Of a stretch of 64,000 bases of DNA, positions 604 through 63,506 are shown one piece after another. The stretch comes from Aureispira sp. CCB-E (GTDB lineage Bacteria; Bacteroidota; Bacteroidia; Chitinophagales; Saprospiraceae). The stretch lies in contig NZ_CP133671.1 in the NCBI RefSeq assembly GCF_031326345.1, positions 6,607,501 to 6,671,500 of the forward strand. The letters are read 5' to 3'. The notes under the pieces were generated by a model, which saw only the letters and a program-made list of their open reading frames with translations, did no database searches and was not told the origin of the DNA. A program made the translations under genes and the position numbers. Each line of letters begins with the position of its first letter. Position 1 is the stretch's first letter.

Positions 604-2007
604 ATGTTTGGACTCATGCATCCCCAAAATACGTGTTCAACGAAAAAAAATAATTCCAATTATTTGTACCATCGCAGGCATTATTGTGGTACTTGTAAAG
701 CTATTGGCAAAAATTATAATCAACAAAGTCGGTTAATGCTGAATTGGGATACTGTTTTTTTATCTGAGTTATTATCACAATTAGAACATGAAAATTTTAA
801 ATCATGGAGCGATCGTTTAAAAACAGTGAATACTTGTTTTTCTATACCAAAAGAAAAACTCCCTTTTTCTTTAGAGTATGCCGCAACTGTTTCTGTTTTA
901 TTAGGAACGTTAAAGATTAATGACAATAATCAAGATGAGCCAGCTCTAAAGTGGAAATTTGCTCAATACCTTTATACTTCTTCGCAAAAGAAAGCTCTTT
1001 TACAATTTGAGCACTGGGGTATTGATACTATATATATACAAAGCATAATTCAACAGCAATACCAAAGAGAGCGCAAAAAAATACAATTTAAACATTTGCA
1101 TTCTTGTTTAAACTATTATGCAGAGGCTACTGCTAAAATAACAGCTTACCTTTTTCAACAAGGAGGACTTCGACTGCAACAAAAAACAGACTTATATCAA
1201 TTAGGTTATTCTTTTGGTCAACTCATCTACATCTTAGATGCCTTTGAAGATTATGAAAAAGATGTTTTTAAAGACCAGTTTAATCCTTTGATAAAATACT
1301 TTGGGTCTTTCAATCAGTTAGACGAATCAAATTTAGAGTCTGTCCGATCTATTTTATTAGATATCCAAGCAGAAATAGACACACATCTTCAACAACTCAG
1401 TATAACAGCAGAGGCAATATCTATTTATAAAGATAGATTAGCATCTAACCTTGCGCTTCGGTTGTATCAAGAACGACGTATTCCTAAAACGATTAATGAC
1501 CAAATTGCTTTAAGGTGGAATGAGGCAAAGATTTTTGCTAACCAAATTACATGTCAACCCAAAACTTGGTTGCGCCAACTAAACTACTATGTGATTGTCT
1601 TGGCTGTGTTTGCGAATCCACAAACAAAAACATATTTGCCTCAAGAGGGTAAATTACAGATTGTGGGCTGGACCTTGTTGATGACAACTATCTTAGCAAG
1701 TATTGGTATCGCAGGAGTTGTTAGAAGAGATAGAAAAAAACAAAAGGATCAAAAACGTAAAGAAAAAAGGATTAAGCGTCTAAAAAGAAAAATAAAAAAT
1801 CTATTTCGTAAAAAGGATTGTTGGTCGGACTGCTGTAGCAATTGTTGCAATCAATGTTGTAGTGATTCTTGTAGTAACTGTTGTGGTGATTGTTGCGAAT
1901 GGATGTGCCAAGAAGATAACTTAATGATTACAGTAATTCTGCTTATATCTATTGTAGCAATCACCACCATTATCATTCTTATCTTATTCTTCTTGGGGCT
2001 ACTTTAA
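604..2007 (+). CDS. DUF5685-like membrane protein with C-terminal Cys cluster
   Basis: 467 residues. The N-terminus carries the MFG start and a YCGTCK motif (about residues 27-32), then a helical region with a YILDAFEDYEKD stretch (about 210-221) followed by FNPLIKYF, a pattern I associate with the DUF5685 family. There is a membrane segment near 352-375, a very basic Lys/Arg linker (about 376-404), and 13 cysteines in the 30 residues 406-435, mostly as CC pairs two residues apart. The protein ends in a hydrophobic helix (440-467). The family has no established biochemical role known to me. The Cys cluster between two membrane helices suggests metal or disulfide chemistry at the membrane face; this is inference. 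Confidence 0.7.
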   Translation: MFGLMHPQNTCSTKKNNSNYLYHRRHYCGTCKAIGKNYNQQSRLMLNWDTVFLSELLSQLEHENFKSWSDRLKTVNTCFSIPKEKLPFSLEYAATVSVLLGTLKINDNNQDEPALKWKFAQYLYTSSQKKALLQFEHWGIDTIYIQSIIQQQYQRERKKIQFKHLHSCLNYYAEATAKITAYLFQQGGLRLQQKTDLYQLGYSFGQLIYILDAFEDYEKDVFKDQFNPLIKYFGSFNQLDESNLESVRSILLDIQAEIDTHLQQLSITAEAISIYKDRLASNLALRLYQERRIPKTINDQIALRWNEAKIFANQITCQPKTWLRQLNYYVIVLAVFANPQTKTYLPQEGKLQIVGWTLLMTTILASIGIAGVVRRDRKKQKDQKRKEKRIKRLKRKIKNLFRKKDCWSDCCSNCCNQCCSDSCSNCCGDCCEWMCQEDNLMITVILLISIVAITTIIILILFFLGLL

Positions 2008-2164
2008 TATAGTATGACCACCTACTTCCATCTTATTCATTAACCTCTCTACAAATATTAAACTATAAAACAGTTAAAGCAACTTTATTCGCCAATTGAG
2101 TTCTTATCATATCTATCTATCCCCCGTCTATAAGTATTCTATTGTTCACAATTAAAAAATACTA

Positions 2165-2923
2165 ATGATGAAAAACTTTGGTTTTATATTTATTTTAATC
2201 GTCCTATTCAACGCAGCATGCAAAACAAACTCTACCAATACTCAAAATACGCCATCGGAAGCTAGCGATTTTGGAACTGCTGCCTATTATCAAAAATATC
2301 AACGAAATATTGATCGCTTGTATCATATGCTTCAAGGAACATTTATCTGTTACTCTCAATCGACAGAGAAAGAAGCTAAGTTGATTCCTTGGAAAGTAAA
2401 CAATCAGCAAGATAGTGTTATTACTTATTCGGTTCCAATAAAAGAGCCTGCAAAAGATGGATATTGGTTAATTTGTTACCAATTTATAACTAGTTTGCCT
2501 GATGAGCCTATATATTGTGCTGTACAAAAAATTACTCCTGTAGATCGAGATACATTTTTATCTGATTTTTTTGACTCGCCAGCAGAGATTAAATTAACTA
2601 AAATGATTAAAGATTTAAAAACGGTAGAGCAATCTATTGATTTAGAACAGCTAACACCTATTGATGAGGTTGTTACTTATTATAGAGAAAAAATCACCTT
2701 TTTTAAAGGCTTTTCTAACATTTATAAAGATCACCAAAATCAAAACTTGACCTATAGACAAGAAAACTATGAAGTTCATCCAGAAAACACCCAGTTTGCT
2801 ACCCGATACTTTAAAGATATAAATGGAGATACTACTATTAATAAAGCATCCAATATTGCCATCGAGATTAGAACTTCCAAACCTGTTTCCGAAATGATTG
2901 ACCAAACGTTGTTAGGCAAGTAA
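2165..2923 (+). CDS. Lipoprotein of unknown function
   Basis: 252 residues with a hydrophobic signal ending in the lipobox-like NAAC (Cys at residue 19), so a membrane-anchored lipoprotein. The part around residues 50-120 (LYHMLQGTF, then ICYQFITSLPDEPIYCAVQKI) faintly resembles the CpcT/CpeT fold, but the C-terminal half does not, so I do not assign that family. It follows the Cys-cluster gene on the same strand after 157 bp. Real-gene confidence is high; function is unknown. Confidence 0.75.
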   Translation: MMKNFGFIFILIVLFNAACKTNSTNTQNTPSEASDFGTAAYYQKYQRNIDRLYHMLQGTFICYSQSTEKEAKLIPWKVNNQQDSVITYSVPIKEPAKDGYWLICYQFITSLPDEPIYCAVQKITPVDRDTFLSDFFDSPAEIKLTKMIKDLKTVEQSIDLEQLTPIDEVVTYYREKITFFKGFSNIYKDHQNQNLTYRQENYEVHPENTQFATRYFKDINGDTTINKASNIAIEIRTSKPVSEMIDQTLLGK

Positions 2924-28528: not shown

Positions 28529-28681
28529 GTCCTATTACAATTCTATATTAGGTTAAACCTATTTGCCTTCATTGGCATGACAATTAACCATAACCTATAC
28601 CTATTATCCGTTGGGAGATTTGCTATTTTCACTCCAATAACTTGGTAGTGTCACAACTACTCCTTAGCTTCGCATTTATTA

Positions 28682-28762
28682 CTTATCGAGAAAGGTGGAG
28701 GGACTTGCCCTTAGAAGCCTTGGCAACCTGCTTTAGTAAGGTGCTAACTCAAGACAGATAAG
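28682..28762 (+). ncRNA. SAM-I (S-box) riboswitch aptamer
   Basis: The classical core is present in order: CTTATCGAG, AAAGGTGGAGGGAC, TGCCC, GAAGCC, GGCAACC, AAGGTGCTAA, and a closing GATAAG. CTTATC (28682-28687) and GATAAG (28757-28762) form P1. AGATAAGTTAGAAAGC just after the core can pair with GCTTCTAACTTTATCT, the 5' half of the terminator below, giving the antiterminator. S-adenosylmethionine binding therefore turns off the downstream methionine genes. Confidence 0.93.
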
Positions 28763-28799
28763 TTAGAAAGCTTGATATCTACTGATAATCTACTATACC

Positions 28800-59324: not shown

Positions 59325-59861
59325 ATTTAGGATTGTTATTGGTTTTTGAATATAGAAGTTACCACTAAATAAATACAATGGAGTATTCCCCTTCGTTTTT
59401 AGTACGCTGTTTATCAAGTTATGTTTCTTTTTATAAGACATTTCAATAAAACTTGACACCTATTAAAATGAAACTGTATGGTTATTGTAACAACAGCAAT
59501 AAAAGAAAAAATTTGCTCTTAATGACAACCATAATACGGTGTGCAGTTCATTTAATTGCTTTTAATGAATAATTTCGTGGCATTAATATATTATGCACTT
59601 GAAACATGAAAATAAAATTAATACTAACTAAAAATATAAGTGTTTTTTTTCTGCTTTTATAGCAACAAAACTAACAATTCTACTACATTACAAGGGGCTT
59701 ATTTATAACTAAAACTCTCCATTTTTCCCAAAAATGCGTATTTTAAGCCGTAACTCAATCCACAAACCTAGGTACAATGTTCGCTTCAAATTATATAGTT
59801 TGGCAAACAATGCACCCAGTGCTACCTTATCTATAATTAACAATCAATCAATTAATATAAC
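59325..59861. other. Gene-free stretch
   Basis: 537 bp, AT-rich, with no ORF, hairpin or member of the repeat families seen. It contains the promoters of the flanking divergent genes, none of which I could place. Confidence 0.4.
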
Positions 59862-60095
59862 ATGGGGTATTATGTAAAGTATGGCCATCGCTTCATCAAG
59901 CGAACACGCAATCGGAGGATTGACACCATTGACGCCATTTTGGGCACAAAAAAGCAAGCAAAAATTTACGGTTCTGAACGAGATGCCAAAAAGGCAATTA
60001 CAACCTATATGTATGCCTACAAAGAATTAGAAGGAAATTGTGAAATTGTAAAAGCCAAAGTTCCTCCTAAGAGTGCGGCAAAAGAGGATTCTTAG
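59862..60095 (+). CDS. Small basic protein, unknown
   Basis: 77 residues, rich in Lys/Arg (MGYYVKYGHRFIKRTRNRR at the start), with a hydrophobic stretch only at IDTIDAILG. The ATG has the family-like MGYYVKY opening and a stop 42 bp before the terminator of the first candidate small RNA. No signal peptide. Confidence that it is real is moderate; no family recognised. Confidence 0.5.
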   Translation: MGYYVKYGHRFIKRTRNRRIDTIDAILGTKKQAKIYGSERDAKKAITTYMYAYKELEGNCEIVKAKVPPKSAAKEDS

Positions 60096-60128
60096 ATTAG
60101 GATGAAGCAACTTATCTTGAGTGGACTT

Positions 60129-60172
60129 TTTCTAAATCAAAAAGAAAAAGCCAATCGCAGTACGATTGGCTT
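60129..60172 (-). terminator. Terminator of candidate small RNA A
   Basis: Minus strand AAGCCAATCG, 5-nt loop, CGATTGGCTT (60148-60172), perfect 10-bp stem followed by TTTTCTTTTTG. Confidence 0.85.
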
Positions 60173-60500
60173 GCCTTTGCATAATCATTAACATGGATTA
60201 GGTTGTCATGGTTTGTTAAGACTTAGTAAAGCATTGGTCTAAAGTTTAGTTCTGATTATTTCAAAGGCAATCTCTTTGTTTCATGGGCAAAGAGTTGTTC
60301 ATAGGTTAAAAATTTAGTTGAAAGTTTTAGGTTTGTTTAGTTGAATTTTAGGTATTAGTTTTTCTCAAGCTATTTTCTTTATATTCTTAAAGTATAAAGA
60401 AGTTTCTCATGGATTTTAAAATTTAGTTGAAGGTTTAGGTTTAGGTAAATTTTAAAGTTTAGTTTTTTAATTTTCATGAGGAAGGGTTAGCTCCTTTTGT
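60138..60500 (-). ncRNA. Candidate small RNA A
   Basis: About 360 nt from a consensus promoter (60506-60537) to the terminator at 60129-60172. The transcript is poor in G, rich in A/C/T, and repeats CTAAAC/CAACTAAATTTTAAA-like segments. A short frame of 32 codons exists near its 5' end but is not kept in the second copy. The first and last 50-60 nt match candidate RNA B; the middle does not align well. Inferred from promoter, terminator and duplication; transcription is untested. Confidence 0.55.
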
Positions 60501-60505
60501 TGTTA

Positions 60506-60537
60506 CAAATATAGTCCTTTTATAGTTTCAGAACAAG
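60506..60537 (-). promoter_or_regulatory. Promoter of candidate small RNA A
   Basis: Minus strand CTTG (60537-60534), 20-bp spacer, TATATTTG (60513-60506); fits TTG-N20-TAnnTTTG exactly. Confidence 0.75.
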
Positions 60538-60542
60538 CCGAA

Positions 60543-60600
60543 CTAACGAAAGGAACATTTGAACTAATGAAAGGTACATTTCACCCAACGAATGGATTTT
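60543..60600 (-). promoter_or_regulatory. Three 21-bp direct repeats upstream of RNA A promoter
   Basis: Units start at 60543, 60564 and 60585 (plus-strand CTAACGAAAGGAACATT, CTAATGAAAGGTACATT, CCAACGAATGGATTTT). Exact 21-bp period, two helical turns, 5 bp from the -33 element. On the minus strand each holds TTC(G/A)TT(A/G)G, close to a LytTR-type half site. Confidence 0.65.
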
Positions 60601-60749
60601 GTATTCTTTTCCTTTACTTTCGTTTAACCTTAAAAACATATTTTTCGCCCCCTACCATACCTAATTTTATCACTTATTTACGATCTTCCACTCGATCAGA
60701 TTAAGAGTGCCTTACAATTGATTATTAACTTTTTGAATCTTGAGCAGTT
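60601..60749. other. Spacer between candidate RNAs
   Basis: 150 bp with no duplication counterpart and no ORF. Confidence 0.35.
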
Positions 60750-60787
60750 CCTTAAAAAGAAAAAGCCAACCGCTTTGCGATTGGCTT
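60750..60787 (-). terminator. Terminator of candidate small RNA B
   Basis: Minus strand AAGCCAATCGC, 3-nt loop, GCGGTTGGCTT (60763-60787) with one C-A mismatch, followed by TTTTCTTTTTAAG. Homologous to the terminator of RNA A. Confidence 0.85.
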
Positions 60788-61000
60788 ACCTTTTTATAAC
60801 CATTAACATGAATTAGGGTTGGGGATCATGGTATTCACTTTAAGGTTCAGCATGGGTTTAACGTTTAGCTGAATTTTAAGGTTTAGTTTTGGCTATGCAA
60901 AGGTAACTTTCCTGATTTCATGGATAAAGAGCAGTTTACAATTACTTGGTTTAACTACATTCTAAAACGTTTGACACAAAGAAAGATGTATCCTTCTTTG
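60750..61000 (-). ncRNA. Candidate small RNA B
   Basis: About 250 nt from the promoter at 61007-61038 to the terminator at 60750-60787. It shares the 5' end (TAACAACAAAG), a 3' block (CCATG, CCTAAT, CATGTTAATG) and the terminator with RNA A, but is about 110 nt shorter. Again G-poor with CTAAAC repeats. Short frames do not agree between the copies, so a peptide is unlikely. Confidence 0.55.
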
Positions 61001-61006
61001 TTGTTA

Positions 61007-61038
61007 CAAATATACACCATCTAACTACATCAAACAAG
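61007..61038 (-). promoter_or_regulatory. Promoter of candidate small RNA B
   Basis: Minus strand CTTG (61038-61035), 20-bp spacer, TATATTTG (61014-61007), identical layout to that of RNA A. Confidence 0.75.
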
Positions 61039-61043
61039 TCCAA

Positions 61044-61101
61044 CTAATGAAAGGAACATTCTATCTAATGAAAGATACATTTCACCTAATGAATGGATTT
61101 T
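61044..61101 (-). promoter_or_regulatory. Three 21-bp direct repeats upstream of RNA B promoter
   Basis: Units start at 61044, 61065 and 61086 (CTAATGAAAGGAACATT, CTAATGAAAGATACATT, CTAATGAATGGATTTT on the plus strand). Same period and same 5-bp distance from the -33 element as in copy A. The last unit overlaps the final codons of the Thg1-like gene. Confidence 0.65.
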
Positions 61102-61838
61102 TTATAGTGGACACCGTCTCTATTAGGCAGAATATCTTTAAGCCTTTCTCTCTCTTTTGAAAACCAAATAGCACCTTGATTAATCCAACGATAACGCACA
61201 ACATTGCCTTTGGGATACGCTTTTTTTAAAGACAAACCTCCCCGCTTAAGACGAATTGGATAATCATTCCAATTTTTTCCCTTTTTAAAAATCAATTCTT
61301 GCAAATCATTACTTGACTTGCCCAACAAATCTTTGTGACTGTAAAGTGATTGTGCGAGCATAGAGATTGAATTTCGAACACAGTCATTCTGTCGCCAAAT
61401 GAAGTAGTTCTCAACTTCTATTCGATCAGGAATAGTAAATACTCGGCTATCAAAAAAAGCTAACTTATCAATTCCTTGCTCTTTTCTAATTTGATTAAAA
61501 TAAGCAGAAGCTAACGCCGCAGAGATAGAAGTCATCTTTTGTATGTTTCCATCATACCAAGCGGTAGTAGTAGACTTTTCAAAATCTGTTAAGAGAATAG
61601 AAATTTCATCCGACTGAACAAACGCCATCTTAGCTCCTTGTATTTCTTGACACAAAAAATTAGCTGTTTCATCCATTGCATGTACAAAATCGGCATCAAA
61701 AGGTCGCGCACACCCTTTGGTATAAGTGTGAAAAGCTTTGCCATCTAGCCGAATAATTGTATACGTTCGTCTAGGCAAAAAGTAACGTGTTCTATTTTCA
61801 TATTGAGATTTCATTCTATCTCCTAAAGCATCTTTCAT
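61086..61838 (-). CDS. Thg1-like protein (3'-5' RNA polymerase)
   Basis: 250 residues. The metal-binding core is intact: Asp32 in IIRLDGKAFHTYTKG and Asp77-Glu78 in MAFVQSDEISILL. FDSRVFTIPDRIEVENYFIWRQNDCVRNSISMLAQSLYS (about 135-173) and the KRGGLSLKK end match the Thg1 family. In eukaryotes Thg1 adds G-1 to tRNA-His. Bacterial tRNA-His normally carries G-1 from its gene, so bacterial members are thought to repair 5'-truncated tRNAs. Its start overlaps the upstream kinase gene by 4 bp. Confidence 0.93.
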   Translation of the reverse strand: MKDALGDRMKSQYENRTRYFLPRRTYTIIRLDGKAFHTYTKGCARPFDADFVHAMDETANFLCQEIQGAKMAFVQSDEISILLTDFEKSTTTAWYDGNIQKMTSISAALASAYFNQIRKEQGIDKLAFFDSRVFTIPDRIEVENYFIWRQNDCVRNSISMLAQSLYSHKDLLGKSSNDLQELIFKKGKNWNDYPIRLKRGGLSLKKAYPKGNVVRYRWINQGAIWFSKERERLKDILPNRDGVHYKKSIH

Positions 61839-62275
61839 GAGTTTTCTATAATTTTAAATCCTGTTTTAGCATTAAAAATAACTGTATATAATCGATCAAA
61901 TCCTTCTGTTAATGTAGGTCGCTCTAATTTTTTAAAAACCGATTTGATCCCAACTTCAGTTACTCTTTTCTTTCCCATTCGTTGGTTATTCCAATGTAGA
62001 GAACGCTCAAAATCTGGTTCAAAAAAATAGGCAATGACGTCATATTTTTTTTCTTTAAACCAATCTATGTAGCGTTTTCGTTCACTTATTGTTGGGTTTG
62101 TATTGTCGATAACTACTTTTTGCTGCACAGCTCGAGCATACGCCATTAGCTTTAGTTCCTTATTCCGTGTATTCAACAAATCCATACTGATTCTCATATG
62201 AGTATCAAAAAAGTGCTTTTTATAAAAAGTTGACTTGCCGCTACCAGGTATTCCTATAAATATAATTGCCTGCAT
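61835..62275 (-). CDS. P-loop kinase, polynucleotide 5'-kinase-like
   Basis: 146 residues from the ATG at 62275 (MQAIIFIGIPGSGKST), so that the P-loop GIPGSGKST sits at 8-16 as in T4 polynucleotide kinase; a GTG/ATG 12 codons earlier is less likely. RISMDLLNTR supplies the Asp after the P-loop, and DNTNPTISERKRYI and HWNNQRMGKKRV give a basic lid. The size and motifs match the kinase domain of Pnkp-type proteins, here without a phosphatase. It probably phosphorylates RNA 5'-OH ends (inference). Overlaps the Thg1-like gene by 4 bp. Confidence 0.85.
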   Translation of the reverse strand: MQAIIFIGIPGSGKSTFYKKHFFDTHMRISMDLLNTRNKELKLMAYARAVQQKVVIDNTNPTISERKRYIDWFKEKKYDVIAYFFEPDFERSLHWNNQRMGKKRVTEVGIKSVFKKLERPTLTEGFDRLYTVIFNAKTGFKIIENS

Positions 62276-62339
62276 TTTATGTATTTTAATAATTTCACAT
62301 TCACCTTTCAAAGCTGCAACACCATCAATTGACTGGTTG

Positions 62340-63056
62340 TTACCTCACAATACTAAACCATTCAATTCCTAAATTACCTTCTCTACTTTTGATATCTAAT
62401 AATGCTCCTTTTTCTGTTTGATCAAAAAAATCCTCATCCACAGCTATTTGAGTTTGATTAAAATCCTTTTTCATAGATTTTAAAATCAAATAATACATCT
62501 CTTGATCACTGTCTGAATTAATCACTTTATCAACAACCAAAACTTGATGCTCATCGCTTGAGAAATCATCAATGCAGTTGATGAAAACTAAAATGCCATA
62601 CGCAACGCCCAGTAAAAAGACAAATACCATTCCTCCCATCATCATCTCGCTAACCTCCTTAGGGTGATGCTTCTTAGAAGTCCTCATCACCAACCAACAA
62701 AGTAATAAAGCAACAACAATAGTATAGAAAAACAGCATCAAAATTTCTTTAATCTCCCAATCAGAAGACAACCAATAAATCAAAGGTGATAAGCTAGGAA
62801 GTAACAAAATCAATAAAGAAGGTTTCTCTGCATGCGCAGGCTCTCTTAACAATTTAAATGCACTAGGAGAATACCCACCTATTCCAATTGTGAGCACAAA
62901 TAATAGAATAGAAAATAAAACCACGTATTCTACATAAGGAATGGAACGAATGGTATTAAGAAGCACAATAAGTAGTGCCAAACTTCCTATTACAGTGATT
63001 TTGGAGGCAAATTGACGAACCCAAACATTAACAGAATTATTTTCTACCATATTCAT
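62340..63056 (-). CDS. Membrane protein, unknown
   Basis: 238 residues, about five hydrophobic helices (about 17-35, 42-60, 80-100, 105-125, 145-165) followed by a 70-residue soluble tail beginning IDDFSSDEHQVLVVDKVINSD. No family recognised. It lies 64 bp before the kinase gene on the same strand and may belong to the same transcript. Confidence 0.65.
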   Translation of the reverse strand: MNMVENNSVNVWVRQFASKITVIGSLALLIVLLNTIRSIPYVEYVVLFSILLFVLTIGIGGYSPSAFKLLREPAHAEKPSLLILLLPSLSPLIYWLSSDWEIKEILMLFFYTIVVALLLCWLVMRTSKKHHPKEVSEMMMGGMVFVFLLGVAYGILVFINCIDDFSSDEHQVLVVDKVINSDSDQEMYYLILKSMKKDFNQTQIAVDEDFFDQTEKGALLDIKSREGNLGIEWFSIVR

Positions 63057-63506
63057 TTTTTATACTTTTTTTTAACAGTAAGTAAGTGGTCAGAAAAAAT
63101 AAGAACAAAAAATGGGATTATTTTTTTGCTAATCCAAGAAGAAAAAGGAAGACTTAGCGAGCTAAGACAAGTTTTTCTGATGAAGAGTAGCGCAAAAAGA
63201 AGGCTGTTTTAGCTACGCTGCTACTGCGTGGTACTTGTTATTTTTTTTGAACAATTACTTACCTTCTAATATAAAGACCATACTCAAAGCACGAAACACA
63301 AGCTTTTTATTCTATGCTATTAATTTGTTCTGAACATTACTAAATAGCTTCTACTCATCCTATTGAGAACTACAAGAGTCTCTTAAATATTTTAATACTA
63401 AAATCTAGGAAAATTTATATCTTTGTGTTTTATTTTATAATAGCTTGCTAATAGTCGAGCGAACTATTGATTTTAACAACTACTATTCATAACATAAATA
63501 CAAACC
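63057..63506. other. Spacer before pheT with dispersed repeat
   Basis: 450 bp. A core module of the dispersed family (TAGCTACGCTGCTACTGCGT) is at 63210, and a GCGAACTATTG end-like sequence at about 63459. A -7-like TATCTTTG lies at 63418-63425 with no clear TTG. No gene in the stretch. Confidence 0.45.
63209..63235 (+). repeat. Dispersed intergenic repeat, core module
   Basis: TAGCTACGCTGCTACTGCGT from 63210, followed by GGTAC. Same module as at 2983, 24315 (reverse) and 54216 (reverse). Confidence 0.7.

Follow-up and report, generated by a model that had tools for sequence, protein, structure and literature searches.

Candidate intergenic small-RNA genes behind 21-bp repeat promoters form a family in Aureispira

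Decoy RNAs of the CsrB/RsmZ and CrcZ kind repeat a short motif in loops or unpaired stretches, with a variable number of modules, and the Qrr sRNAs of vibrios are encoded in several copies behind an activator-dependent promoter. Multi-copy sRNAs that act by pairing near start codons also exist in the phylum of Aureispira, namely FopS/GibS of Bacteroides thetaiotaomicron; the passages of the report used here describe a conserved R1 seed and binding of RbpB (PMC11697453). For Aureispira or the Saprospiraceae, no described small-RNA family was found in Rfam or, judged by title and start of abstract, among the papers listed from the open-access library searched.

The DNA analysed here (the window) is a stretch of 64,000 nucleotides from Aureispira sp. 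CCB-E. Directly 3′ of a Thg1-like protein gene, two homologous cassettes were found on the minus strand, copy A (61091-60752) and copy B (60590-60137). Both consist of three 21-bp repeats, the sequence TTG-N20-TATATTTG, a G-poor body (14% G in A, 9% in B) and a terminator hairpin followed by a T tract. All elements that had been listed in the earlier note for 60129-61101 were recovered, oriented as the Thg1-like gene. Between the copies, identity amounts to 86% in the upstream blocks (73 nt), 86% in the terminator blocks (64 nt) and 85% in the promoter block (27 nt). In copy A, the direct repeats, with the core CATTAG..GAATGT..CTTT, occupy 61029-61091, the promoter 61007-61037 and the RNA gene, of about 250 nt with predicted ends, 60752-61002. 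Its core domain (60788-60904) is closed by a stem termed P1 (arms 60890-60904 and 60788-60802) and encloses CTAAAC, CCATGA and CCTAA; the terminator hairpin and T tract follow at 60752-60787. In copy B, the repeats lie at 60528-60590, the promoter at 60506-60536 and the RNA gene, of about 365 nt and likewise with predicted ends, at 60137-60501. This RNA contains a hairpin CTCTTTG-cccatgaaa-CAAAGAG (60272-60294), the loop of which shows CCCATGAAA, a core domain closed by P1 (60173-60268; arms 60253-60268 and 60173-60187) and the terminator hairpin with T tract (60137-60172). All these features are on the minus strand. A convergent 77-aa gene on the plus strand (59862-60095), without a match in Pfam or NCBIfam, borders copy B.

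The genus was sampled with nine Aureispira genomes (G000-G008), G000 being that of the window and G002 that of CCB-QB1 (locus L042), which belongs to the same species and provides the nearest named contig. The 77-aa gene is present in seven of the nine and serves as a marker of the locus in G001 and G008 as well. Gene labels used below (pheT, glyA, pssA, LamG, OmpH, LRR, Crp-like, histidine-kinase-like, lipoprotein) are our own reading of the sequences and not the outcome of a family search. A DNA search of the window's own genome yielded a third paralogue, cassette C, downstream of glyA-pssA (C1:5283886-5284276) and far from Thg1. Type C was found at the same place downstream of pssA in G000, G002, G008 (69% identity), G001 and G005, the last with four 21-bp repeats and TTG-N20-TATCTTTG; none was seen in G003, G004, G006 and G007 over the roughly 700 nt that follow pssA. 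At the A/B place, between pheT and the 77-aa gene, G001 carries one complete cassette, a promoterless remnant and three tandem cassettes with a period of 297, together with a protein gene behind a promoter of the same type. Two B-like RNAs are cut by contig ends: in G008, the 3′ part remains next to the 77-aa gene, and in G004, the 5′ part after a broken Thg1 remnant. RNA genes or pieces of them were found in six of the nine genomes (G000, G001, G002, G004, G005 and G008), and no RNA gene in the remaining three (G003, G006 and G007). A model built from the terminator and 3′ motif was searched with stricter filters in 60 relatives, G002 not included. It gave eight matches of at least 68.6 bits (five in G001, one in G008, two in G000), all of them its own training sequences, and the next best match reached 38.8 bits. 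Four lower matches that were read are plain terminators by appearance, and the search indicated neither a new copy nor spread beyond the genus among these relatives.

The 21-bp arrays were reported by Tandem Repeats Finder at 60540-60596 and 61039-61097. They extend in phase into the -33 element. The G001 copies have a degenerate third repeat, and their first two repeats are kept at an unchanged distance from this element. As given in the passages of PMC6847099 used here, the Bacteroidota primary-sigma consensus has TTTG at -33 and TANNTTTG at -7, with the last G of the -7 element at -5, from which the transcription starts of A and B were predicted at about 61002 and 60501. TTG-N20-TATATTTG is exact in A and B, and TTG-N20-TAnnTTTG is exact in all 11 RNA promoters read, C of G005 included; all 11 follow the -33/-7 layout as described in those passages. 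Repeat 1 of copy A contains the TAG stop codon of the Thg1-like gene, so that no gap separates this gene from the promoter. A strict pattern of three repeats, allowing 3 mismatches at most, was found at 10 places, some overlapping, in four of the nine genomes, against 0 for the reversed control, and missed the more degenerate arrays of G001 and G005 (0 matches there) and of C of G000. With another pattern of these repeats, 14 matches were obtained against 3 for the reversed control.

Similar repeats also precede protein genes. Nine such stretches were laid out; four have TTG at the spacing of the RNA promoters, and that of L007 is the only one without an array. Repeat promoters were noted upstream of apparent secreted, LRR and OmpH-like genes at L005, L054, L066, L071, L004 and L031. 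As far as can be read from their sequences, the protein genes behind the repeats specify proteins that are secreted or located at the surface, as well as OmpH-like chaperones, and the genes with these promoters possibly form a regulon under a putative activator. At L014 (about 1440-2230, plus strand), a TACATTTG box and a small gene for a product with a GG-type leader peptide have repeats about 120 nt upstream of them. The repeat-like stretches of L007, L009 and L011 were inspected and not counted among the RNA genes.

Within the bodies, CTAAAC occurs twice in A and five times in B, counts reached by 14 and 0 of 1000 dinucleotide shuffles, and CCATGA twice in A and three times in B (2 and 0 of 1000); these motifs were picked after inspection, and seven were tested. 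CATGA, CTAAA and CCTAA were each present in 11 of 11 RNAs and exact CTAAAC in 10, a count that includes three near-identical G001 copies and one cut piece. When both strands of the window were scanned in 2550 overlapping 250-nt segments, at least two CATGA together with at least two CTAAAC were found in 10, all on A or B. Shuffling was applied to a set of five RNAs and one motif-rich stretch of G005 (locus L083), leaving aside C of G001 and C of G005. In this set, CTAAAC was enriched in all six sequences (count reached by 0 to 30 of 1000 shuffles) and CCATGA in five, the exception being C of G000 (53 of 1000); CCTAA was within chance in four (478, 606, 684 and 738 of 1000). The motif set is not uniform, as C of G001 carries a single CATGA and lacks exact CTAAAC. 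In B, in B of G008 and in the C RNAs of G000, G008 and G005, CATGA sits in the loop of a hairpin, with stems that differ, and the G008 piece holds seven CATGA and an 81-nt tandem module. As a search pattern, three CTAAAC performed overall no better than the reversed control, which often gave more matches; its useful matches were copy B and the CCATGAAAAACTAAAC-rich stretch at L083. The latter, an unassigned intergenic element (about 1450-1716, minus strand, contig C283), lies between histidine-kinase-like and Crp-like genes, contains 10 CTAAAC and 4 CCATGA and is a motif kin of the RNA family, no 21-bp repeats being seen in it.

Folding z-scores, to which the included terminators contribute, were -4.79 for copy A (0 of 200 shuffles as good) and -6.10 for copy B (0 of 100). 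The G008 piece of B scored -7.57, a value raised by its tandem module. For C of G000, G008 and G001, z-scores of -2.32, -2.88 and -4.07 were obtained, for the G001 sequences G001_3 and G001_1 -3.79 and -2.18, and for a trimmed piece of C of G005 a weak -1.67 (11 of 200 shuffles as good). P1, a bulged stem, was found in A, B and five G001 sequences, where it closes the final domain ahead of the terminator. Since the MAFFT alignment (A6) missed the register of its upper half, P1 was counted by hand, leaving out the weak P1 of G008 (duplex -3.8). The seven sequences comprise six distinct arm pairs, in which 70 of 71 cells are paired and two-sided changes occur at 4 of 12 pairs; this pairing was reached by 1 and the two-sided count by 80 of 5000 shuffles. 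Given the manually set register and the close relatedness of the G001 copies, the covariation of P1 is good but not independent evidence.

The longest frames starting with ATG, GTG or TTG comprise 16 codons in A and 32 codons in B and lie at different places, in line with the earlier statement that the copies share no ORF. In other RNAs, frames reach at most 22 codons, and none of 12 or more is present in C of G001 or G001_1. Right after an ATG, the two G008 modules of 81 nt are shifted by one base relative to each other, with the CTTTAC/GTAAAG hairpin kept, which argues against translation. A conserved translated frame, which the earlier note had held to be incompatible with RNA genes, was sought among the homologues and not found, the frames being different or absent. 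Judging from sequence, A and B are best read as two genes of an Aureispira family of candidate intergenic small non-coding RNAs of about 130-370 nt with predicted ends. The paralogues, the counterparts at the same position, the conserved stem, the fixed promoter layout and the lack of a conserved frame among the homologues all point this way, and the small-RNA part of the earlier interpretation was retained as a candidate assignment.

Rfam 15 was searched with the window and five loci (L063, L083, L101, L103 and L060), leaving aside L124, L127 and L137. No family reached the gathering cut-off on A or B. The five loci gave five matches up to E 1, none at gathering score; the best of these was mir-5697 (E 0.0012), outside the RNA of L103. 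The sole Rfam match in the window was a SAM riboswitch (RF00162) at 28680-28764 on the plus strand (68.7 bits). With regard to Hfq-dependent sRNAs, no Hfq match in G000 exceeded the cut-off of 27 bits, the best one scoring 15.6 bits. Many GGA in loops, as in CsrB-type RNAs, were not found, the 11 RNAs having 0-3 GGA each.

The Thg1-like gene (61086-61838, minus strand; Pfam Thg1, E 1.4e-27; PDB 4kgk, E 1.2e-67) is preceded by a gene for a polynucleotide-kinase-like P-loop protein (61835-62311, minus strand; AAA_33, E 1.3e-12), which matched a PNK-3′Pase model at E 4.6e-16, far below the cut-off of that model. At L032, from a Flavobacteriales MAG, Thg1 is followed by what reads as a similar kinase, which suggests that this two-gene set (61086-62311) is a recurring RNA-repair pair. 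The earlier note had raised the possibility that the RNAs serve as substrates or guides of these enzymes. They do adjoin Thg1, which is intact in the window's genome and reduced to remnants in G002 and G004. This possibility was not supported. In CCB-QB1, window 61305-62323 has no counterpart: the kinase gene is missing, and of Thg1 the C-terminal part alone remains. A and B are nevertheless kept, the A/B locus differing by 4 mismatches in 981 bases; window 59800-61304, which holds both RNAs, is 99.7% identical. Window 62504-63303, part of a DUF6498-like gene and beyond, also has no counterpart in the CCB-QB1 locus. Among 40 relatives searched, a set without G002, Thg1 was found intact in G000 and G008 and as a broken piece in G004. 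The G004 remnant (L062/L043) has internal stops, and the adjoining RNA promoter and 5′ end remain. No Thg1 match was obtained in G001, which has the multi-copy RNA locus and type C, or in G005, which has type C, in both cases beside pssA. In G008, the intact Thg1 is followed by a repeat promoter and a protein gene, not an RNA. Downstream regions were read for five of 13 Thg1 loci: RNAs follow in L042 and L043, both behind Thg1 remnants, a repeat promoter and protein gene in L031, and neither in L032 and L034. A Thg1-linked RNA was rejected, since genomes that lack a Thg1 match or retain a remnant alone also have RNA loci, and a role as substrate or guide of the two enzymes is hardly credible. 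The Thg1-like gene is regarded as a neighbour and not as part of the RNA system, and the kinase-like gene as a neighbour as well.

For the RNAs themselves, a protein decoy is the main rival to a regulatory RNA: CCAUGA loops and CUAAAC stretches would titrate an RNA-binding protein, as do CsrB and CrcZ. Like those RNAs, the A/B family repeats short motifs in loops and unpaired stretches of variable modules, up to seven CATGA in the G008 piece and five CTAAAC in copy B, and the L083 element has 10 CTAAAC. The repeated motif differs, however, being CCAUGA/CUAAAC with 0-1 copies of the CA motif AANAAYAA per RNA, and the low GGA count shows that the RNAs are not decoys of the CsrA type. C of G001 and C of G005 have one or zero copies of a motif, and in G000 no Hfq match above the cut-off provides a partner, so that a decoy function was judged unlikely. 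A related idea, which we regard as improbable, is that the RNAs mimic translation starts: loops with CCCAUGAA would capture a start-recognising factor or start-targeting RNAs, forming a decoy tunable by dosage and co-induced with a surface-protein regulon. CCCAUGAA resembles the surroundings of mRNA start codons in a phylum without Shine-Dalgarno sites. In Flavobacterium johnsoniae, however, adenine at -3 favours initiation, according to the passages of PMC6847099 used here, and the CCC preceding AUG in several loops argues mildly against real start sites as well as against their mimicry.

Passive or selfish promoter-terminator cassettes, duplicating without a selected RNA function, would account for the near-identical tandem copies and the promoterless remnant of G001 and for the failure to see type C near pssA in four of the nine genomes. 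This explanation is also improbable, given that type C occupies a constant place between species, with promoter, motifs and hairpins preserved at no more than 69% identity, and that P1 covaries. Finally, the CTAAAC arrays might encode a short peptide with alternating LNxKxx. In copy B, the 32-codon frame, MKIKKLNFKIYLNLNL..., opens with ATG 24 nt past the predicted start, and the G008 piece has a 22-codon frame; in copy A, however, the equivalent stretch follows a stop with no start before it. As the RNAs have no long frame in common, frames of at least 12 codons are lacking in C of G001 and G001_1 and the G008 modules are shifted by one base, short-peptide genes were considered very improbable.

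The reading we favour, with a probability of roughly 0.5 and by analogy with described systems, is that the A/B family consists of activator-controlled, trans-acting regulatory RNAs that probably act by base-pairing, in a logic comparable to that of Bacteroides FopS. A putative transcription factor would bind the 21-bp repeats, which span two helical turns, just upstream of the -33 element, and would turn on the RNAs jointly with some of the apparent surface-protein and chaperone-like genes preceded by similar repeats. The RNAs would act in trans, with unpaired or looped CCAUGA and CUAAAC as seeds pairing with mRNAs, perhaps near start codons, as in the multi-copy FopS RNAs. Dosage would be set by copy number at the A/B locus (two in the window; four full copies and a remnant in G001). 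Several copies behind a seemingly activator-dependent promoter, including the tandem array of G001, also recall the Qrr sRNAs, a likeness by description and not by sequence; no sequence, sigma-factor or Hfq link was found. Among known kinds, the multi-copy FopS RNAs come closest, again compared by description and not by sequence. Both are multi-copy, mostly intergenic sRNA families of the same phylum, in which coexpression and dosage are plausible; FopS differs in having 14 members and a known partner, RbpB, and the 21-bp repeat promoter and the P1 stem are Aureispira features absent from the FopS passages used here (PMC11697453).

The A/B RNAs and the adjoining Thg1-like RNA-repair gene thus appear functionally unrelated. 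The RNA family combines a recognisable promoter code with several paralogues, a covarying stem and defined loop motifs, and provides a directly testable entry to RNA regulation in a genome without an Hfq match, and also to the regulator of the 21-bp repeats.
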